This document shows positions 36,346 through 43,058 of a DNA stretch of 49,956 nt, piece after piece. Source of the DNA: Chloroflexota bacterium (GTDB lineage: Bacteria; Chloroflexota; Dehalococcoidia; UBA2979). Below the pieces are notes generated by a model. The model made no database searches and had not been told where the DNA came from. It was given only the letters and a program-made list of their open reading frames with translations. The stretch is from NCBI GenBank assembly GCA_003228125.1, contig QGNP01000008.1:1-49956 (forward strand). Direction: 5' to 3'. Position numbers and translations under genes: made by a program. Position 1 is the stretch's first letter. Each line of letters opens with the position of its first letter.

Positions 36346-37113
36346 ATGATTGATAATTTAAAAAAATTTCAAGTAATTGAAAAAATATTTCGTGATGTCC
36401 TAAATGCTAACAATTTTACTGAAATTCGCACTACGACTATCCAACCGCTAAATTTATATACTTCTGCCGGCACATTGACTCCCAGTATGTTACATGGAAC
36501 ATACTCGTTTCTTGATTGGGATGGATGGTCAGGAGAGCGGATTGTTTTAAGACCTGATGTAACTGTACCTGTTGCGCAATGGTATTTAAATAATATACAA
36601 GGAGAAGAAGCAAAGCTTTTTTATATTGAACCTGTTTATCGATTCGTTGATGATAAAAATAATAGAGAAATATGGCAGTGCGGTACAGAATTAATAAACA
36701 TATCTCCAGAAATTGCAAATGAAGAAATTATTAAACTTGTTACAGAATTATTAGGTAAATTACATTTAACCACAGCAATTAAAGTTGTTATTACTAACAA
36801 AGATGATGGTTTGCATGCTGATAGTTATGATGCATTACCAAATGGAAGTATCGCAAAAAGATTAATCGAAGCATTAAGCAATATTTTTGAAACAACAGGA
36901 TTTAACTATGAATTCATTGATTCATCTGCAAATAAAAAATTTGAATATTATACAAACTATGCTTTCTCAGTAATTACAAATGATACTGAAATATTATCTG
37001 GAGGCAGATATGATAATTTATGCGAGGAGCTCGGCGGTAAAAAAACTTATGCTTCTGGGTTTGCATTTAATATGAATGAAATAATAAAATTATTAGCTGA
37101 TGATCGACAATGA
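36346..37113 (+). CDS. hisZ: ATP phosphoribosyltransferase regulatory subunit HisZ (HisRS-like core)
   Basis: 255 residues with the class II tRNA-synthetase core: TTIQPLNLY and VLRPDVTVPVAQWYL (motif-2 region, about 67-82), FYIEPVYRF then REIWQCGTELI, and the C-terminal SGGRYDNLCEELGG (motif 3). The anticodon-binding domain is missing, as in HisZ. HisZ binds short-form HisG and confers His feedback. It opens the his operon (a GAGAGG SD lies before it) and overlaps hisG by 4 bp (ATGA), the expected partner order. Confidence 0.85.
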   Translation: MIDNLKKFQVIEKIFRDVLNANNFTEIRTTTIQPLNLYTSAGTLTPSMLHGTYSFLDWDGWSGERIVLRPDVTVPVAQWYLNNIQGEEAKLFYIEPVYRFVDDKNNREIWQCGTELINISPEIANEEIIKLVTELLGKLHLTTAIKVVITNKDDGLHADSYDALPNGSIAKRLIEALSNIFETTGFNYEFIDSSANKKFEYYTNYAFSVITNDTEILSGGRYDNLCEELGGKKTYASGFAFNMNEIIKLLADDRQ

Positions 37114-38480
37114 TTAAACTAGCATTACCTCGAGGGTCTATTCAAAAAAATGTTGCCAATATCTTATTGGAACTTTCTATAGATATACCTGACTACAATT
37201 CAGCAAATAGAGTTTATAGTTATGAATTTAATAATATGAATGATGCTGTTGCTCGATCGTTTGCCGAAAAAGACATTCCAATACAAGTTGCGTTAGGTAA
37301 TTATGACCTTGGAATTGTTACTTCATGGTGGGTAGACGAGTTGTTAATTAAATATCCTCACTTATCAATTGAAAATTTAATCTCTTTTAATGATTCAGTT
37401 TCTACATTATATTCAACTACTTCAAATGACAAAAATATTCTTAATGATAATCTTGACGAACATATCATTATTACAGAATTTCCAAATATAACAACTAATT
37501 ACTTGTACACAAACAGAACTTCTAATTATCGGGTATTTGAAGCCTGGGGAAATCCTGAAAATTGGCTTCATGGAGACGCATCAATTGCAATTTTGCCTGA
37601 AGAGAAGCTTACGGATAAAATCAAAGTTATTGACTCAATTTACCAAGGAGGGATGCTTTTAATTGGCAATAGAAAAAAAAATAAAAATATTAAGGAGTCA
37701 AATATTTTTAAGCTTTTAAATAAATACAACGGCCTATCATCTCGCTCGCCTTTTAATTTTAATGGAAACAAGATAAATGAATACGTAAATAAAACTAAAA
37801 AAATATCTCAACCTAGAAAAAAAATTAGGCTTGCTATTCCAGATGGACATGCATTTAAACATACGGCTCTAGCACTAAATGATGCTGGAATTAATATTTC
37901 AGGTTACACGGACGTAGATTCAATCGGTAAAAATTTTGAAAATGATCTAGGTATGGATATTAATATTATGCGCCCTCAAGATATGCCTCAGGCAGTAGCT
38001 TTAGGTTTATATGATATAGCAATAACAGGAAGAGATTGGCTTAAGAATTTTGTTTTTAATTATCCGAATTCTCCAGTAGAAGAAATACATGACTTGCAAA
38101 GAAGTAAATATAAAATTGGAGCTGTTGTTTCACAAGACTTGAATTGCAAGAATATCAATGAAGCGTTTATTAAATGGGAAAATCAAGGAATAAAAACAAT
38201 TCGAATCGCTTCTGAATATTATGGTATTGCTGATCATTTTGCAAGAAATTCTGCAGCTAATGACTATAAGATTATACCTATTTCAGGTGCATCAGAAGGA
38301 TTTGTACCTCACGATGCAGAAATTTTAGTTGAAGGCGTTGAGACAGGCGCAACATTGAAGGCTAATAATCTTGAAATGCTAGATGTAATTTTGGAATCTA
38401 CTAATATTATTATTGCTAATAAGAATAAACATAAATTAATTGAAGATAAAATATCTCTTTTTTTAAAATATTTTAAATGA
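37110..38480 (+). CDS. hisG: tandem-fused HisG: degenerate N-domain plus catalytic C-domain
   Basis: 456 residues, about twice the short-form HisG length. Each half has the ATP-phosphoribosyltransferase fold: opening MIKLALPRGSIQKN (residue 1) and again KIRLAIPDGHAFKH (about 238). Matching inner segments follow: YDLGIVTSWW (about 65) against YDIAITGRDW (301), and ITEFPNITTNYL (121) against IASEYYGIADHF (366). The PRPP-binding loop VEGVETGATLKANNL (407-421) is intact only in the C-half; in the N-half the same place is shortened and reads EKLTDKIKVIDS without G-x-T-L. So the C-half should be catalytic and the N-half pseudo-enzymatic or regulatory. Reaction: ATP plus PRPP to phosphoribosyl-ATP, the first step of histidine synthesis. 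It is coupled to hisZ by a 4-bp overlap. Confidence 0.85.
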   Translation: MIKLALPRGSIQKNVANILLELSIDIPDYNSANRVYSYEFNNMNDAVARSFAEKDIPIQVALGNYDLGIVTSWWVDELLIKYPHLSIENLISFNDSVSTLYSTTSNDKNILNDNLDEHIIITEFPNITTNYLYTNRTSNYRVFEAWGNPENWLHGDASIAILPEEKLTDKIKVIDSIYQGGMLLIGNRKKNKNIKESNIFKLLNKYNGLSSRSPFNFNGNKINEYVNKTKKISQPRKKIRLAIPDGHAFKHTALALNDAGINISGYTDVDSIGKNFENDLGMDINIMRPQDMPQAVALGLYDIAITGRDWLKNFVFNYPNSPVEEIHDLQRSKYKIGAVVSQDLNCKNINEAFIKWENQGIKTIRIASEYYGIADHFARNSAANDYKIIPISGASEGFVPHDAEILVEGVETGATLKANNLEMLDVILESTNIIIANKNKHKLIEDKISLFLKYFK

Positions 38481-38489
38481 TTGGTTAAT

Positions 38490-39233
38490 ATGCCTGGCTT
38501 ATGCTTACACCTGAGTATTGGTAATTCTATTATTAATAAAACCAATCATTCTGCAATTAAACAGTCACCCGGCTCTTTTTTACTTGGTACTACGGCTCCT
38601 GATATCAGAACAATTACAGGTCAAAATAGAGAGTTAACTCATTTTTTCAATCTAGCTATTCTGGAACCTCAATATCCTATAATTAATTTAAATAAACAAT
38701 ATCCGAATATTTTAAATATATTACAAAGTGATTCATCCGCTAGTTCATTTATAGCTGGTTATATAACTCATTTAATTTCTGATCAAAGATATATAGAATT
38801 AATTTATAGAAAATATTTTTTTTCAAATGATTTTATTAATAATTTAAAAAATAATCTCTATGACCGAACATTGCAATATGAACTAGATAGAATAGTAAGA
38901 TCGGATAATCAATTTTATTCTAAATCTATCGAATTGATAAATAATGATGTTCATAATTATAATCTTCCATTTATTAATGACTTTGAACTGAGTGAATGGA
39001 ATATAATTATGCAAAATATTATTTCACAACCAGCTAGTTTTGATAGATACCCTAGAATGATGATGTCTCACTTAACTAAACTCGGATATGCATTTGAACA
39101 TATTTCTGAACATCTAGGCAATGCAAATAAAATTATAGAAGAATCAATGAATATTGTTGGGAATGAATTTATCAAAATATTTATTGATGATACAGTAGAT
39201 GAATGTATTAAATTAATTGAGGAGCTTGCTTAG
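38490..39233 (+). CDS. phospholipase-C/nuclease-P1-like predicted zinc protein within the his operon
   Basis: 247 residues from ATG 38490, 9 bp after hisG. The pattern recalls zinc-dependent PLC-like domains (Zn_dep_PLPC): an N-terminal M-P-G-L-C-L-H7, GSFLLGTTAPDIR (D38), L-T-H51-F-F, and FIAGYITHLISDQRY (H94, D98). These His/Asp positions could bind metal. It has no signal peptide, unlike secreted PLCs, so a cytoplasmic hydrolase is likely. The stop overlaps the hisD GTG (TAGTG), which binds it tightly to the operon. It is not a known histidine enzyme. Possible roles include phosphatase-like chemistry or an unrelated hitchhiker. Confidence 0.65.
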   Translation: MPGLCLHLSIGNSIINKTNHSAIKQSPGSFLLGTTAPDIRTITGQNRELTHFFNLAILEPQYPIINLNKQYPNILNILQSDSSASSFIAGYITHLISDQRYIELIYRKYFFSNDFINNLKNNLYDRTLQYELDRIVRSDNQFYSKSIELINNDVHNYNLPFINDFELSEWNIIMQNIISQPASFDRYPRMMMSHLTKLGYAFEHISEHLGNANKIIEESMNIVGNEFIKIFIDDTVDECIKLIEELA

Positions 39234-40585
39234 TGTCAAATAATAATTATATAAAAATTTATAAAAATATAGATACTGCTAAAAAAAATCTATTAAAAAG
39301 GAATGCAATTTCTTTATTTGACTATAAGTTACCGCCCATTATTCAAAAAAGAAATGACGGATTGTTTAAAAGAAATCTATCACCTTATGCTCTTGTTAAT
39401 AAAATTATTAAAGAAGTAATTAAAGATGGAGATTCTGCAATAAAAAAATATAGCAAACTTCTTGACGGAGCAGATCTCACTTCATTAAAAGTTACCAAGA
39501 AGGAAATTGATGATGCTTTTAATACTGTCTCTGATGACGATATTAATTCTATAAAATTTATGACTCAAAGAATTAAAAATTATCATGAAATTCAATTAAC
39601 TCATAGCAATAGAGAGTTCTTTCAGAATGGATTTGGTATTAAAGTTGTTCCTATAGATAACATAGGAATATATATGACTGGTGCGCTTACAGCATTACCT
39701 TCTTCAATAATTCACACTGCAATACCAGCAATTATTGCTGGTTCTAAAAATATAGTAGGCATTAGTCCAACTGATGAGAATGGTAATGTTAATCCTTATA
39801 AACTAATTGCTGCAAAATTTGCCGGCATCGAACATGTATACAAAGGGTCTGGTGCTCAAGCAATTGCAGCATTGGCCTACGGAACTGAATCTATTCCAAA
39901 GGTTGATAAAATTGCTGGTCCAGGTAATATTTTTGTATCAATGGCCAAGCAACAGGTATTTGGCAATGTCGGAATCGATGCTCTTTATGGACCAACTGAG
40001 ACACTTGTCATTGCGGATAAGTATGCAAATCCCGACATATGCGCTGCGGATATTTTGCATGCCGCAGAACATGATTCGCTCGCAATTCCAATTTTAATAA
40101 CAGATGATTTAAATATCGCCTTATCAATATCTGATTCAATATCTAAGAATATTGATAATTTTAGCAGAAAAGATACTATTCAAATGTCACTTAAAAATGG
40201 AGGTATAGTTATCAGTAAAAATATTTATGAAGCTGTTGAGTTATCTAATATTTTTGCTCCAGAACATCTTTGTTTATCTATTAGAAATCCCAACAAATTC
40301 ATTTCATTAATTAAAAATGCCGGTGGTATTTTTGTTGGTGAAGGAACGCCTGAAGTCATTGGTGATTATACTGGTGGAATAAGTCATGTTATGCCAACCG
40401 GAGGTACTGCAAAATATGCTAGCCCACTTAGCATTTATGACTTTCAAAAAATCATATCAATTGCTGATATATCAGCAATTGACTTACGGCAACTTGGTCC
40501 TCAAGCATCCCGAATTGCTATGATTGAAGGCCTATCAGCTCATGCAAACTCTATTGATATTAGATTGAATATTTTAAATGAATAA
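39233..40585 (+). CDS. hisD: histidinol dehydrogenase
   Basis: 450 residues from a GTG start that overlaps the previous stop by one base, with GAGGAG about ten bases upstream. KIAGPGNIFVSMAKQQVFG (about 223-241) is the family signature; nearby G-P-T-E-T-L-V-I-A-D and LHAAEHD carry zinc and NAD contacts; APEHLCLSIRNP follows. It catalyses the final two oxidations, histidinol to histidine. It overlaps hisC by 8 bp. Confidence 0.96.
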   Translation: MSNNNYIKIYKNIDTAKKNLLKRNAISLFDYKLPPIIQKRNDGLFKRNLSPYALVNKIIKEVIKDGDSAIKKYSKLLDGADLTSLKVTKKEIDDAFNTVSDDDINSIKFMTQRIKNYHEIQLTHSNREFFQNGFGIKVVPIDNIGIYMTGALTALPSSIIHTAIPAIIAGSKNIVGISPTDENGNVNPYKLIAAKFAGIEHVYKGSGAQAIAALAYGTESIPKVDKIAGPGNIFVSMAKQQVFGNVGIDALYGPTETLVIADKYANPDICAADILHAAEHDSLAIPILITDDLNIALSISDSISKNIDNFSRKDTIQMSLKNGGIVISKNIYEAVELSNIFAPEHLCLSIRNPNKFISLIKNAGGIFVGEGTPEVIGDYTGGISHVMPTGGTAKYASPLSIYDFQKIISIADISAIDLRQLGPQASRIAMIEGLSAHANSIDIRLNILNE

Positions 40586-41651
40586 TTTTGATTTTAAAGA
40601 TTATATTCAATCTAATTTGTCTGAAATTATAGGATACCAAGCTCTAAGTTATCCAAATGAATTAAGAAATTTTATTAAACTCGATGGCAATGAAAATCCC
40701 TATGGACCATCAAAGAAGGCTATTGAAGTGCTATCACAACGGAATGATTTTCATTTATATCCAGATCATCCTGACAAGTTAAGACAAAAAATTGCTGATT
40801 CGTTAAATGTATTGCCAGAGAATATTGTCTGTAGTGCTGGCGCTGATGCAGTTATTAATCTTATTTTTTCATCTTTTAAAAAACAAGATATGAAACTGGT
40901 TATAATTAAGCCCTCATTTGGAATGTATAAACATGATGCCATGATCAATAACTTACTTTTTGATGAAATTAACCTAGAAATAGCCTCTCAACCAAATGGC
41001 CATTATTTAGACGCAAACCTCTTTTCACGCAATAAACATGCATTCATTTTTGCTATTCCTAATAACCCAACTGGAGGAATAATGGAGAAAGAGTCAATTC
41101 TTAAATTATTAGATGCTGAACACTTAGTTATTATTGATGAAGCGTATATAAAATTTTCTAAGCATCAATCATATGTAGAGTTGACTAAGAAATATAAGAA
41201 TTTAATTGTCATACAAACATTTAGCAAGTGGGCAGGACTAGCTGGCCTTAGACTTGGCTACGGAGTTATGCACCGTGATCTTTCTTCTACTTTAAATGCA
41301 ATTCAACAACCTTATACGATAACAAATTATGCAATTGATGCTGCTATGGTATCACTTGATGATGTTGAATTTTTAGATAACAATGTAAAAAAAATCATTG
41401 CAACAAAAGATCTTTTTATTAATCAATTAGTTGACATAACTAATATTACCCCAATTAATTCAGAAGGAAATTTTATCTTATGTAGAATAAATAAAGGGAA
41501 AAATACTGATTTTCAAAAATTTTTGTATAATAAAAATATATTAATTAGGTCATATTCTGATGTCGAATTAAAGAAATATGTTAGAATATCCATTGGAACT
41601 CCCAAGAATATGGAATATGTTATAGAAGTAATTAAAGAATGGAATTCTTAA
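40578..41651 (+). CDS. hisC: histidinol-phosphate aminotransferase
   Basis: 357 residues, fold type I PLP enzyme. KLDGNENPYGPSKKAI (about 34-49), the IPNNPTGG loop (about 156-163), IIDEAYIKF (Asp pairing with the pyridine ring) and IQTFSKWAGLAGLRLGYG (PLP Lys in S-K-W, then the Arg phosphate contact) are all present. It converts imidazole-acetol phosphate to histidinol phosphate. It begins inside the last codons of hisD and ends 1 bp before hisB. Confidence 0.95.
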   Translation: MNNFDFKDYIQSNLSEIIGYQALSYPNELRNFIKLDGNENPYGPSKKAIEVLSQRNDFHLYPDHPDKLRQKIADSLNVLPENIVCSAGADAVINLIFSSFKKQDMKLVIIKPSFGMYKHDAMINNLLFDEINLEIASQPNGHYLDANLFSRNKHAFIFAIPNNPTGGIMEKESILKLLDAEHLVIIDEAYIKFSKHQSYVELTKKYKNLIVIQTFSKWAGLAGLRLGYGVMHRDLSSTLNAIQQPYTITNYAIDAAMVSLDDVEFLDNNVKKIIATKDLFINQLVDITNITPINSEGNFILCRINKGKNTDFQKFLYNKNILIRSYSDVELKKYVRISIGTPKNMEYVIEVIKEWNS

Positions 41652-41652
41652 A

Positions 41653-42252
41653 ATGACTAATCGGGTGAGCAAAGTACAGCGGAAAACAAATGAAACTGAC
41701 ATTGAGGTGTATTTAAACATTGATGGTACAGGTAAGTCTAATATAAATACTGGAATTGGTTTTTGCGATCATATGTTGAGTGCCTTTGCAAAACATGGAC
41801 GTTTTGATTTAAATGTAGATTGTACTGGTGATCTTGAAGTCGACGCACATCATTCAATTGAAGACATAGGAATTTCTATTGGAAAAGCAATAAATGAATC
41901 ATTAGGCGACAGATCTGGTATCAATAGAATGGGAGACGCCACTGTTCCTTTAGATGAAGCAATGGTTCAGTCAATAGTTGATATATCAGGTCGACCTTTT
42001 GCTTCAATTGATTTAACATTCAATAGTCCTATTATTGGTGAAATGCCTAGTGAATTAATTTCTCACATGTTAGATTCTATTGCGATTAATGCATTAATAA
42101 CACTTCATATTGTTCAAAAATCTGGTAAAAACGATCATCATATCGCTGAATCTGCTTTTAAGTCTTTTGCAAGAGCATTAGATGCAGCTTCGACATTTGA
42201 TTTACGAATTAATGGTAATGTTCCAAGTACGAAAGGGACTCTTGACGCTTGA
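41653..42252 (+). CDS. hisB: imidazoleglycerol-phosphate dehydratase
   Basis: 199 residues, the monofunctional HisB type. GFCDHMLSAFAKHGRF (about 37-52), DAHHSIEDIGISIG (about 68-81) and the late repeat GKNDHHIAESAFKSFARAL (about 158-176) provide the His/Glu manganese ligands. It dehydrates IGP to imidazole-acetol phosphate. Its stop overlaps the following TTG start. Confidence 0.96.
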   Translation: MTNRVSKVQRKTNETDIEVYLNIDGTGKSNINTGIGFCDHMLSAFAKHGRFDLNVDCTGDLEVDAHHSIEDIGISIGKAINESLGDRSGINRMGDATVPLDEAMVQSIVDISGRPFASIDLTFNSPIIGEMPSELISHMLDSIAINALITLHIVQKSGKNDHHIAESAFKSFARALDAASTFDLRINGNVPSTKGTLDA

Positions 42253-43058
42253 TAAATGAAAAAAAAATTCTTGAGATATCACAATATATTCATTCCTTTA
42301 TTGATGAAGTAGATAAATTATCAATGCAATATTTTAATTCTGATATTCCTTTAGATGTCATAACTAAAACTGATGGTTCGTTTGTTACTCTTGCTGATCA
42401 AAAAATAGAAGATTATATAACAAGTAAAATTATTCAATTTGATCCCAATCATGCGATTCTTGGTGAGGAGCGAGGACAAAAAAATAATGATAATGATAAT
42501 GATTATATTTGGATTATTGACCCCATAGATGCAACTAATAATTATTTAAAAGGTATTCCAATTTGGGCTACGCTTATATCTTGCATATATAGAAACGAAG
42601 TAATTTCAACAATTGTTTCAGCGCCTGCAATGGATTTTCGTTTATTTGCAAATATAAATCAAGGCTCGTATAAGCAAATCATTTCACTGAACACAGTAAA
42701 AAGAATTAATGTTTCTAAAAATATGGATTTAAATGATTCATATATGCTATATGGATCTTATTCATTGGCCTCTCAAGTCTATGGTAGCAATTTTGAAAAA
42801 TTACTACTTTCTACTAAAAGACAAAGAGGATTTGGTGATTTTTACGGGCATTGTCTTGTTGCAGAAGGAGCTTCAGATTTTATGGTGGATACCCAATTAC
42901 ATATATGGGATATTGCTCCTTTTTTACTTATTCTTAAAGAGGCGGGTGGCGCTATAGAATTTACTGGAGATTTTTCAATTGATTCCATCGGAAATGCCAT
43001 ATCTGCAAATAGTTTAATAACTCTTGATAAAGTTAAATCAATTATTACAAAAATTTAA
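42249..43058 (+). CDS. hisN: inositol-monophosphatase-family phosphatase, probably histidinol-phosphatase (HisN type)
   Basis: 269 residues from a TTG that overlaps the hisB stop (TTGA), with AAAGGGA about 11 bases upstream; no in-frame ATG exists nearby. IMPase motifs are: VTLADQKIEDYI (about 46-57), HAILGEERG (metal Glu, about 70-78), WIIDPIDATNNYLKGIPIWA (about 94-113) and DTQLHIWDIAPFLLILKEAGG (about 217-237). In this operon, histidinol-phosphate is the likely substrate, closing the gap between HisC and HisD. The activity could also be broader. It converges with purS, overlapping 4 bp. Confidence 0.8.
   Translation: MINEKKILEISQYIHSFIDEVDKLSMQYFNSDIPLDVITKTDGSFVTLADQKIEDYITSKIIQFDPNHAILGEERGQKNNDNDNDYIWIIDPIDATNNYLKGIPIWATLISCIYRNEVISTIVSAPAMDFRLFANINQGSYKQIISLNTVKRINVSKNMDLNDSYMLYGSYSLASQVYGSNFEKLLLSTKRQRGFGDFYGHCLVAEGASDFMVDTQLHIWDIAPFLLILKEAGGAIEFTGDFSIDSIGNAISANSLITLDKVKSIITKI

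Follow-up and report, generated by a model that had tools for sequence, protein, structure and literature searches.

A tandem HisG fusion in Dehalococcoidia whose diverged halves may share one composite active site

The closest described systems are the short-form HisG enzymes (HisGS) of Psychrobacter arcticus, Acinetobacter baumannii, Lactococcus lactis, and Thermotoga maritima, in which identical, separate HisG subunits each carry a full active site and are partnered by the regulatory subunit HisZ. The HisGS holoenzyme is a hetero-octamer of four HisZ subunits and two HisG dimers. Long-form HisG, as in E. coli and M. tuberculosis, lacks HisZ and ends in a histidine-binding domain. In P. arcticus HisG (PaHisG), Arg56 of one subunit crosses the dimer interface into its partner's active site and reaches the PRPP pyrophosphate there; the R56A and R32A variants are impaired 42-fold and 25-fold, respectively, and R56K is ~24-fold slower (PMC9734150). 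Among other histidine genes, hisA, hisF, and hisB are described in passages of two reviews of histidine-gene fusion and elongation as products of in-tandem duplication and fusion that gave two diverged paralogous modules, and the hisG passages of the same reviews report no elongation of hisG (PMC7284861, PMC1963479).

We analyzed a window of 49,956 nucleotides from the genome of a Chloroflexota bacterium of the class Dehalococcoidia (assembly GCA_003228125.1, contig QGNP01000008.1), a draft of 22 contigs that is 84% complete. The window contains a histidine operon with a gene, here called hisGG, that joins two HisG domains in one chain (Table 1). A preliminary description made from the sequence alone had read this chain as two HisG-like domains of which only the second keeps its PRPP loop, and had placed hisZ directly upstream; all three observations held. 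Searched separately, both halves exceeded the Pfam HisG cut-off of 25.5 bits. Against TIGR00070 (cut-off 75.75 bits), the N half scored 56.8 bits, the C half 100.1 bits, and the whole protein 152.7 bits, so the N half of this protein falls below the cut-off and is diverged, though in another tandem protein, that of genome G047, both halves lie above it (150.6 and 122.6 bits). No family besides PF01634 passed its own cut-off in profile searches of the protein and its halves; the idea that the N half belongs to another binding-protein family was excluded, as HisG alone fits. A Pfam search of the whole protein detected no ACT-like C-terminal regulatory domain. The PRPP loop of the C half reads EGVETGATL, and the corresponding N-half loop is mostly three residues shorter in the family of this genome than in other tandem N halves. 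Searching the genome with the hisGG protein returned one place and searching with the HisG profile returned two matches, which we take to be the two halves of hisGG; this 84% complete assembly yielded no other HisG.

Table 1. Features of the hisGG locus, in window coordinates.
Feature	Position	Strand	Remarks
hisZ, regulatory-subunit homologue	36346..37113	+	255 aa; 4 bp overlap with the start of hisGG
hisGG, tandem HisG fusion	37110..38480	+	456 aa; ATG start, open exact frame
N half, HisG domain without PRPP loop	37110..37700	+	about residues 1-197; PF01634 35.4 bits alone
N-half NRVYS	37206..37220	+	Arg34 is the counterpart of Psychrobacter HisG Arg56 (dimer-crossing)
N-half DASIAILPEEKL	37575..37610	+	residues 156-167; occupies the PRPP-loop site but lacks TGxT
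Linker joining the halves	37701..37820	+	about residues 198-237; model confidence lowest here
C half, HisG domain with PRPP site	37821..38477	+	PF01634 102.9 bits alone
C-half IRLAIPDGH	37824..37850	+	PDGH where a P-K-G-R/S loop is usual
C-half IMRPQDMP	37965..37988	+	its Arg is Arg73
C-half PRPP loop DAEILVEGVETGATLKANNL	38313..38372	+	residues 402-421; Glu for the usual Asp176
Zn-dependent phospholipase C-like ORF	38481..39233	+	250 aa; PF00882 30.6 bits, cut-off 26.8 (weak)
hisD	39233..40585	+	TIGR00069 437.8 bits, cut-off 243.8
hisC	40578..41651	+	TIGR01141 285.9 bits, cut-off 276.55
hisB (dehydratase)	41653..42252	+	NF002116 275 bits, cut-off 269
HisN-like phosphatase, IMPase family	42249..43058	+	TIGR02067 182.6 bits, below cut-off 275.15

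The HisZ of the window matched PF13393 at 85.6 bits and TIGR00443 at 106.7 bits, the latter below its cut-off, and a separate true HisRS is encoded elsewhere in the genome (G000:C15). Gene order is constant: hisZ lay directly upstream on the same strand at all 145 loci that had enough sequence. The window HisZ lacks ~60-70 residues between HisRS-like motifs 2 and 3 that its aligned relatives have; among the aligned proteins, this loss recurs only in L002, from the second genome of its genus. Between hisGG and hisD sits the PF00882-like ORF, a homologue of which adjoins hisG in ~50 loci of the class, including some with a single HisG, and is absent from Dehalococcoides-like loci. This ORF was considered as a missing histidinol-phosphate phosphatase and dropped, because the operon has a HisN-like gene.

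The fusion spans a large part of the class Dehalococcoidia. We read 113 distinct tandem proteins of 454-489 aa with the same architecture, including one from the second genome of the genus that is 77% identical to hisGG; the tandem form recurs in the family of the window and in many other families of the class, while further families carry a single HisG. Complete single-contig genomes with the fusion include G047, G078, G106, and G088. Three single-contig fusion genomes of 1.4-1.5 Mb hold 20-27 reductive dehalogenase matches each and are probably Dehalococcoides. The fused gene appears to be carried by cultured relatives. Named tandem records belonged to Dehalococcoidia or other Chloroflexota, with a few under unclassified or doubtful labels, and among the matches listed in a search of the phylum none from any other class extended over the N half. 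One genome in the family of the window has a single HisG (L048, G025:C204:3943-4491) beside a piece of the tandem form; this may be contamination, listed at 5% for that genome.

We built a quick, unrooted tree from 28 N and 28 C halves together with 27 single HisG domains, excluding the PRPP loop columns. The N and C halves each formed their own clade, split off by one branch with SH-aLRT support of 99, and much the same two organism groups recurred inside both; the N half of the window lies on a long branch. Because the halves form separate clades, a single ancient duplication and fusion before the radiation would be the simplest origin of hisGG, with the unrooted tree leaving undecided whether the two clades are mutual sisters relative to single HisG. 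Estimates of dN/dS were 0.02-0.16 for N halves and 0.01-0.16 for C halves across eleven close pairs (a twelfth was saturated), which shows purifying selection on both halves.

Active-site residues are divided between the halves in a reciprocal pattern. TGxT was present in 113/113 C halves and 0/113 N halves, the lone N-half regular-expression match (SGSS in L161) being judged not to be the motif. The missing N-half loop that the preliminary description singled out in this protein is therefore real, but it is a property of every tandem N half that we read, and recent decay in a reduced genome was excluded as its cause. We aligned the halves to the P. arcticus HisG sequence taken from a PDB alignment, checked the register with the R56A crystal sequence (asak for wild-type asrk, differing at that letter only), and ranked 188 aligned positions across the 113 proteins by the difference in entropy between N and C halves. 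Position 56, which had been singled out before the ranking as the interface-crossing residue named in the PaHisG study, ranked first among positions conserved in N halves and lost in C halves, with an entropy of 0.29 bits in N and 3.55 bits in C. Among the 113 N halves, 108 have Arg here, 4 have Lys, and one (L185) has Gly; of the 113 C halves, a single one has Arg and another has Lys. By conservation, position 56 is 18th of the 188 positions in N halves and 187th in C halves. The top of the reverse ranking (conserved in C, lost in N) included T180, D94, G181, T183, R73, position 32, and D176. Arg73 is invariant in C halves and kept in 41/113 N halves; judging from their conservation, R73 and D94 would act within their own subunit.

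AlphaFold modeled the window protein with a pTM of 0.89 and a Dehalococcoides-like member with 0.87, values that fit, if indirectly, halves firmly fixed relative to each other. The N half was modeled with high confidence as a HisG-like fold. In the window model pLDDT fell to 62 in the linker (block 211-220), and in that of L033 twelve residues at the corresponding place were below 50. In a Foldseek search against the PDB, single HisG chains covered half of the model, with TMq of at most 0.42 among the 50 listed.

We suggest, at a probability of roughly 0.75, that hisGG encodes an ATP phosphoribosyltransferase built as a pseudo-dimer within one chain, with a single composite active site and HisZ as its partner. 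A short-form hisG would have been duplicated and fused early in a Dehalococcoidia lineage, giving halves that fold as HisG domains and pack like the two subunits of an ordinary HisG dimer. The C half would retain the pocket for PRPP and ATP, including the TGxT loop, Arg73, Asp94, and Glu163, while the N half would have given up its own PRPP loop and kept the equivalent of Arg56 to reach across and aid the exit of pyrophosphate. The C half's own Arg would then face a dead, loopless pocket, leaving it free to change and be lost. Each chain would have one composite site, compared with two per HisG dimer, and HisZ would still regulate it. We infer the pseudo-dimer geometry and the catalysis by hisGG from these patterns, and the gene order suggests that HisZ still partners and controls the enzyme. 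The preliminary description had viewed the N half as a built-in pseudo-subunit that changes the octamer stoichiometry and might add an allosteric layer. It is indeed a HisG domain without the loop, but because the dimer-crossing Arg56 is kept in N halves and lost from C halves, it looks like half of a composite site, not merely a pseudo-subunit nor mainly a new allosteric layer. By counting, a changed stoichiometry is likely, as each HisG dimer of the holoenzyme would presumably give way to a single hisGG chain.

Several features of the C half and of position 56 itself speak against such a composite site. C halves still carry Arg close to position 56, mostly as Arg-Arg-Pro just past it (R58 in 96/113, R59 in 92/113), though the C half of the window does not. 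The usual P-K-G-R is replaced by a nearly invariant PDGH (Gly-His in 113/113, Asp in 112/113), and since Arg32 matters in PaHisG, the C-half site differs from that of the studied enzyme in more than the fusion. Position 176 is Glu in place of Asp in 105/113 C halves, and in Dehalococcoides-like N halves position 56 is occupied by Lys, the substitution that is slow in PaHisG. An artefact of assembly, or a chimera, might be suspected in a draft of 22 contigs that is 84% complete, but has negligible probability and is refuted by the recurrence of the same fusion in 113 distinct proteins, in complete single-contig genomes, and in the 77%-identical relative from the genus; the relatives do not encode two separate full-length genes in its place.

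The N half could also stand outside catalysis as a regulatory pseudo-enzyme, a module for ligand binding or HisZ docking that adds a layer of allostery. Its modeled HisG fold and purifying selection are compatible with this role, as are its own conserved residues (Gln80 in 113/113 N halves, Glu163 in 99/113) and the constant presence of the usual regulator HisZ next door. Were the N half purely regulatory, there would be no reason for Arg56 to stand out as the residue that it conserves most strongly compared with the C half; we consider this explanation quite unlikely, though a regulatory role and the composite site are not mutually exclusive. The N half is more variable than the C half, with a mean entropy of 1.80 versus 1.38 bits, and with its PRPP loop gone and the long branch of the window's own copy it might be taken for a structural or degenerating relic that keeps the C half soluble and dimer-like. 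Such a relic is hard to reconcile with dN/dS values this low, with Arg or Lys at position 56 in 112/113 N halves, and with persistence over many families, and appears very improbable. A bolder version of the composite-site reading, in which hisGG is a natural single-chain, obligately asymmetric enzyme, the HisZ-HisGG complex has half the sites, and the vacated N pocket has been reused as a regulatory ligand site, is in our opinion unlikely.

Compared with known systems, hisGG shares with HisGS-HisZ the HisG fold, the lack of a detected ACT domain, the PRPP loop (in its C half), the crossing-type Arg (in its N half), and an adjacent hisZ; it differs in having two diverged halves in one chain, with the parts of the active site divided between them. 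A HisGS subunit is a single domain of ~210 residues that forms homodimers, so the 456-aa hisGG is a variant of this form and not a plain member. With long-form HisG it shares the catalytic fold and the reaction, but it has a second HisG domain, no detected histidine-binding domain, and a hisZ. The proposed tandem duplication and fusion into diverged paralogous modules would resemble the gene elongation of hisA, hisF, and hisB. A further parallel is large PurL, a pseudo-dimeric fused enzyme in which one site works and the other is dead: hisGG, too, would have arisen by tandem duplication into a pseudo-twofold chain that kept one site, though the fold and reaction of PurL are unrelated. Searches of open-access full texts turned up nothing that describes a HisG-HisG fusion or Dehalococcoides hisG; database entries may show the pair of HisG domains without comment.

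With hisGG, hisG may join the histidine genes that gene elongation has shaped, and it would be a clear case in which two identical active sites were reduced to one shared site. A holoenzyme in which one hisGG chain stood for each HisG dimer would contain half as many active sites. HisZ activates HisG from a distance of ~20 Å by a route that is still to be explained and is linked to the crossing of Arg56. In an ordinary homodimer any mutation strikes both sites. In the fused family, evolution would have separated the donor and acceptor sides of this crossing, so that each may be mutated alone within one polypeptide.
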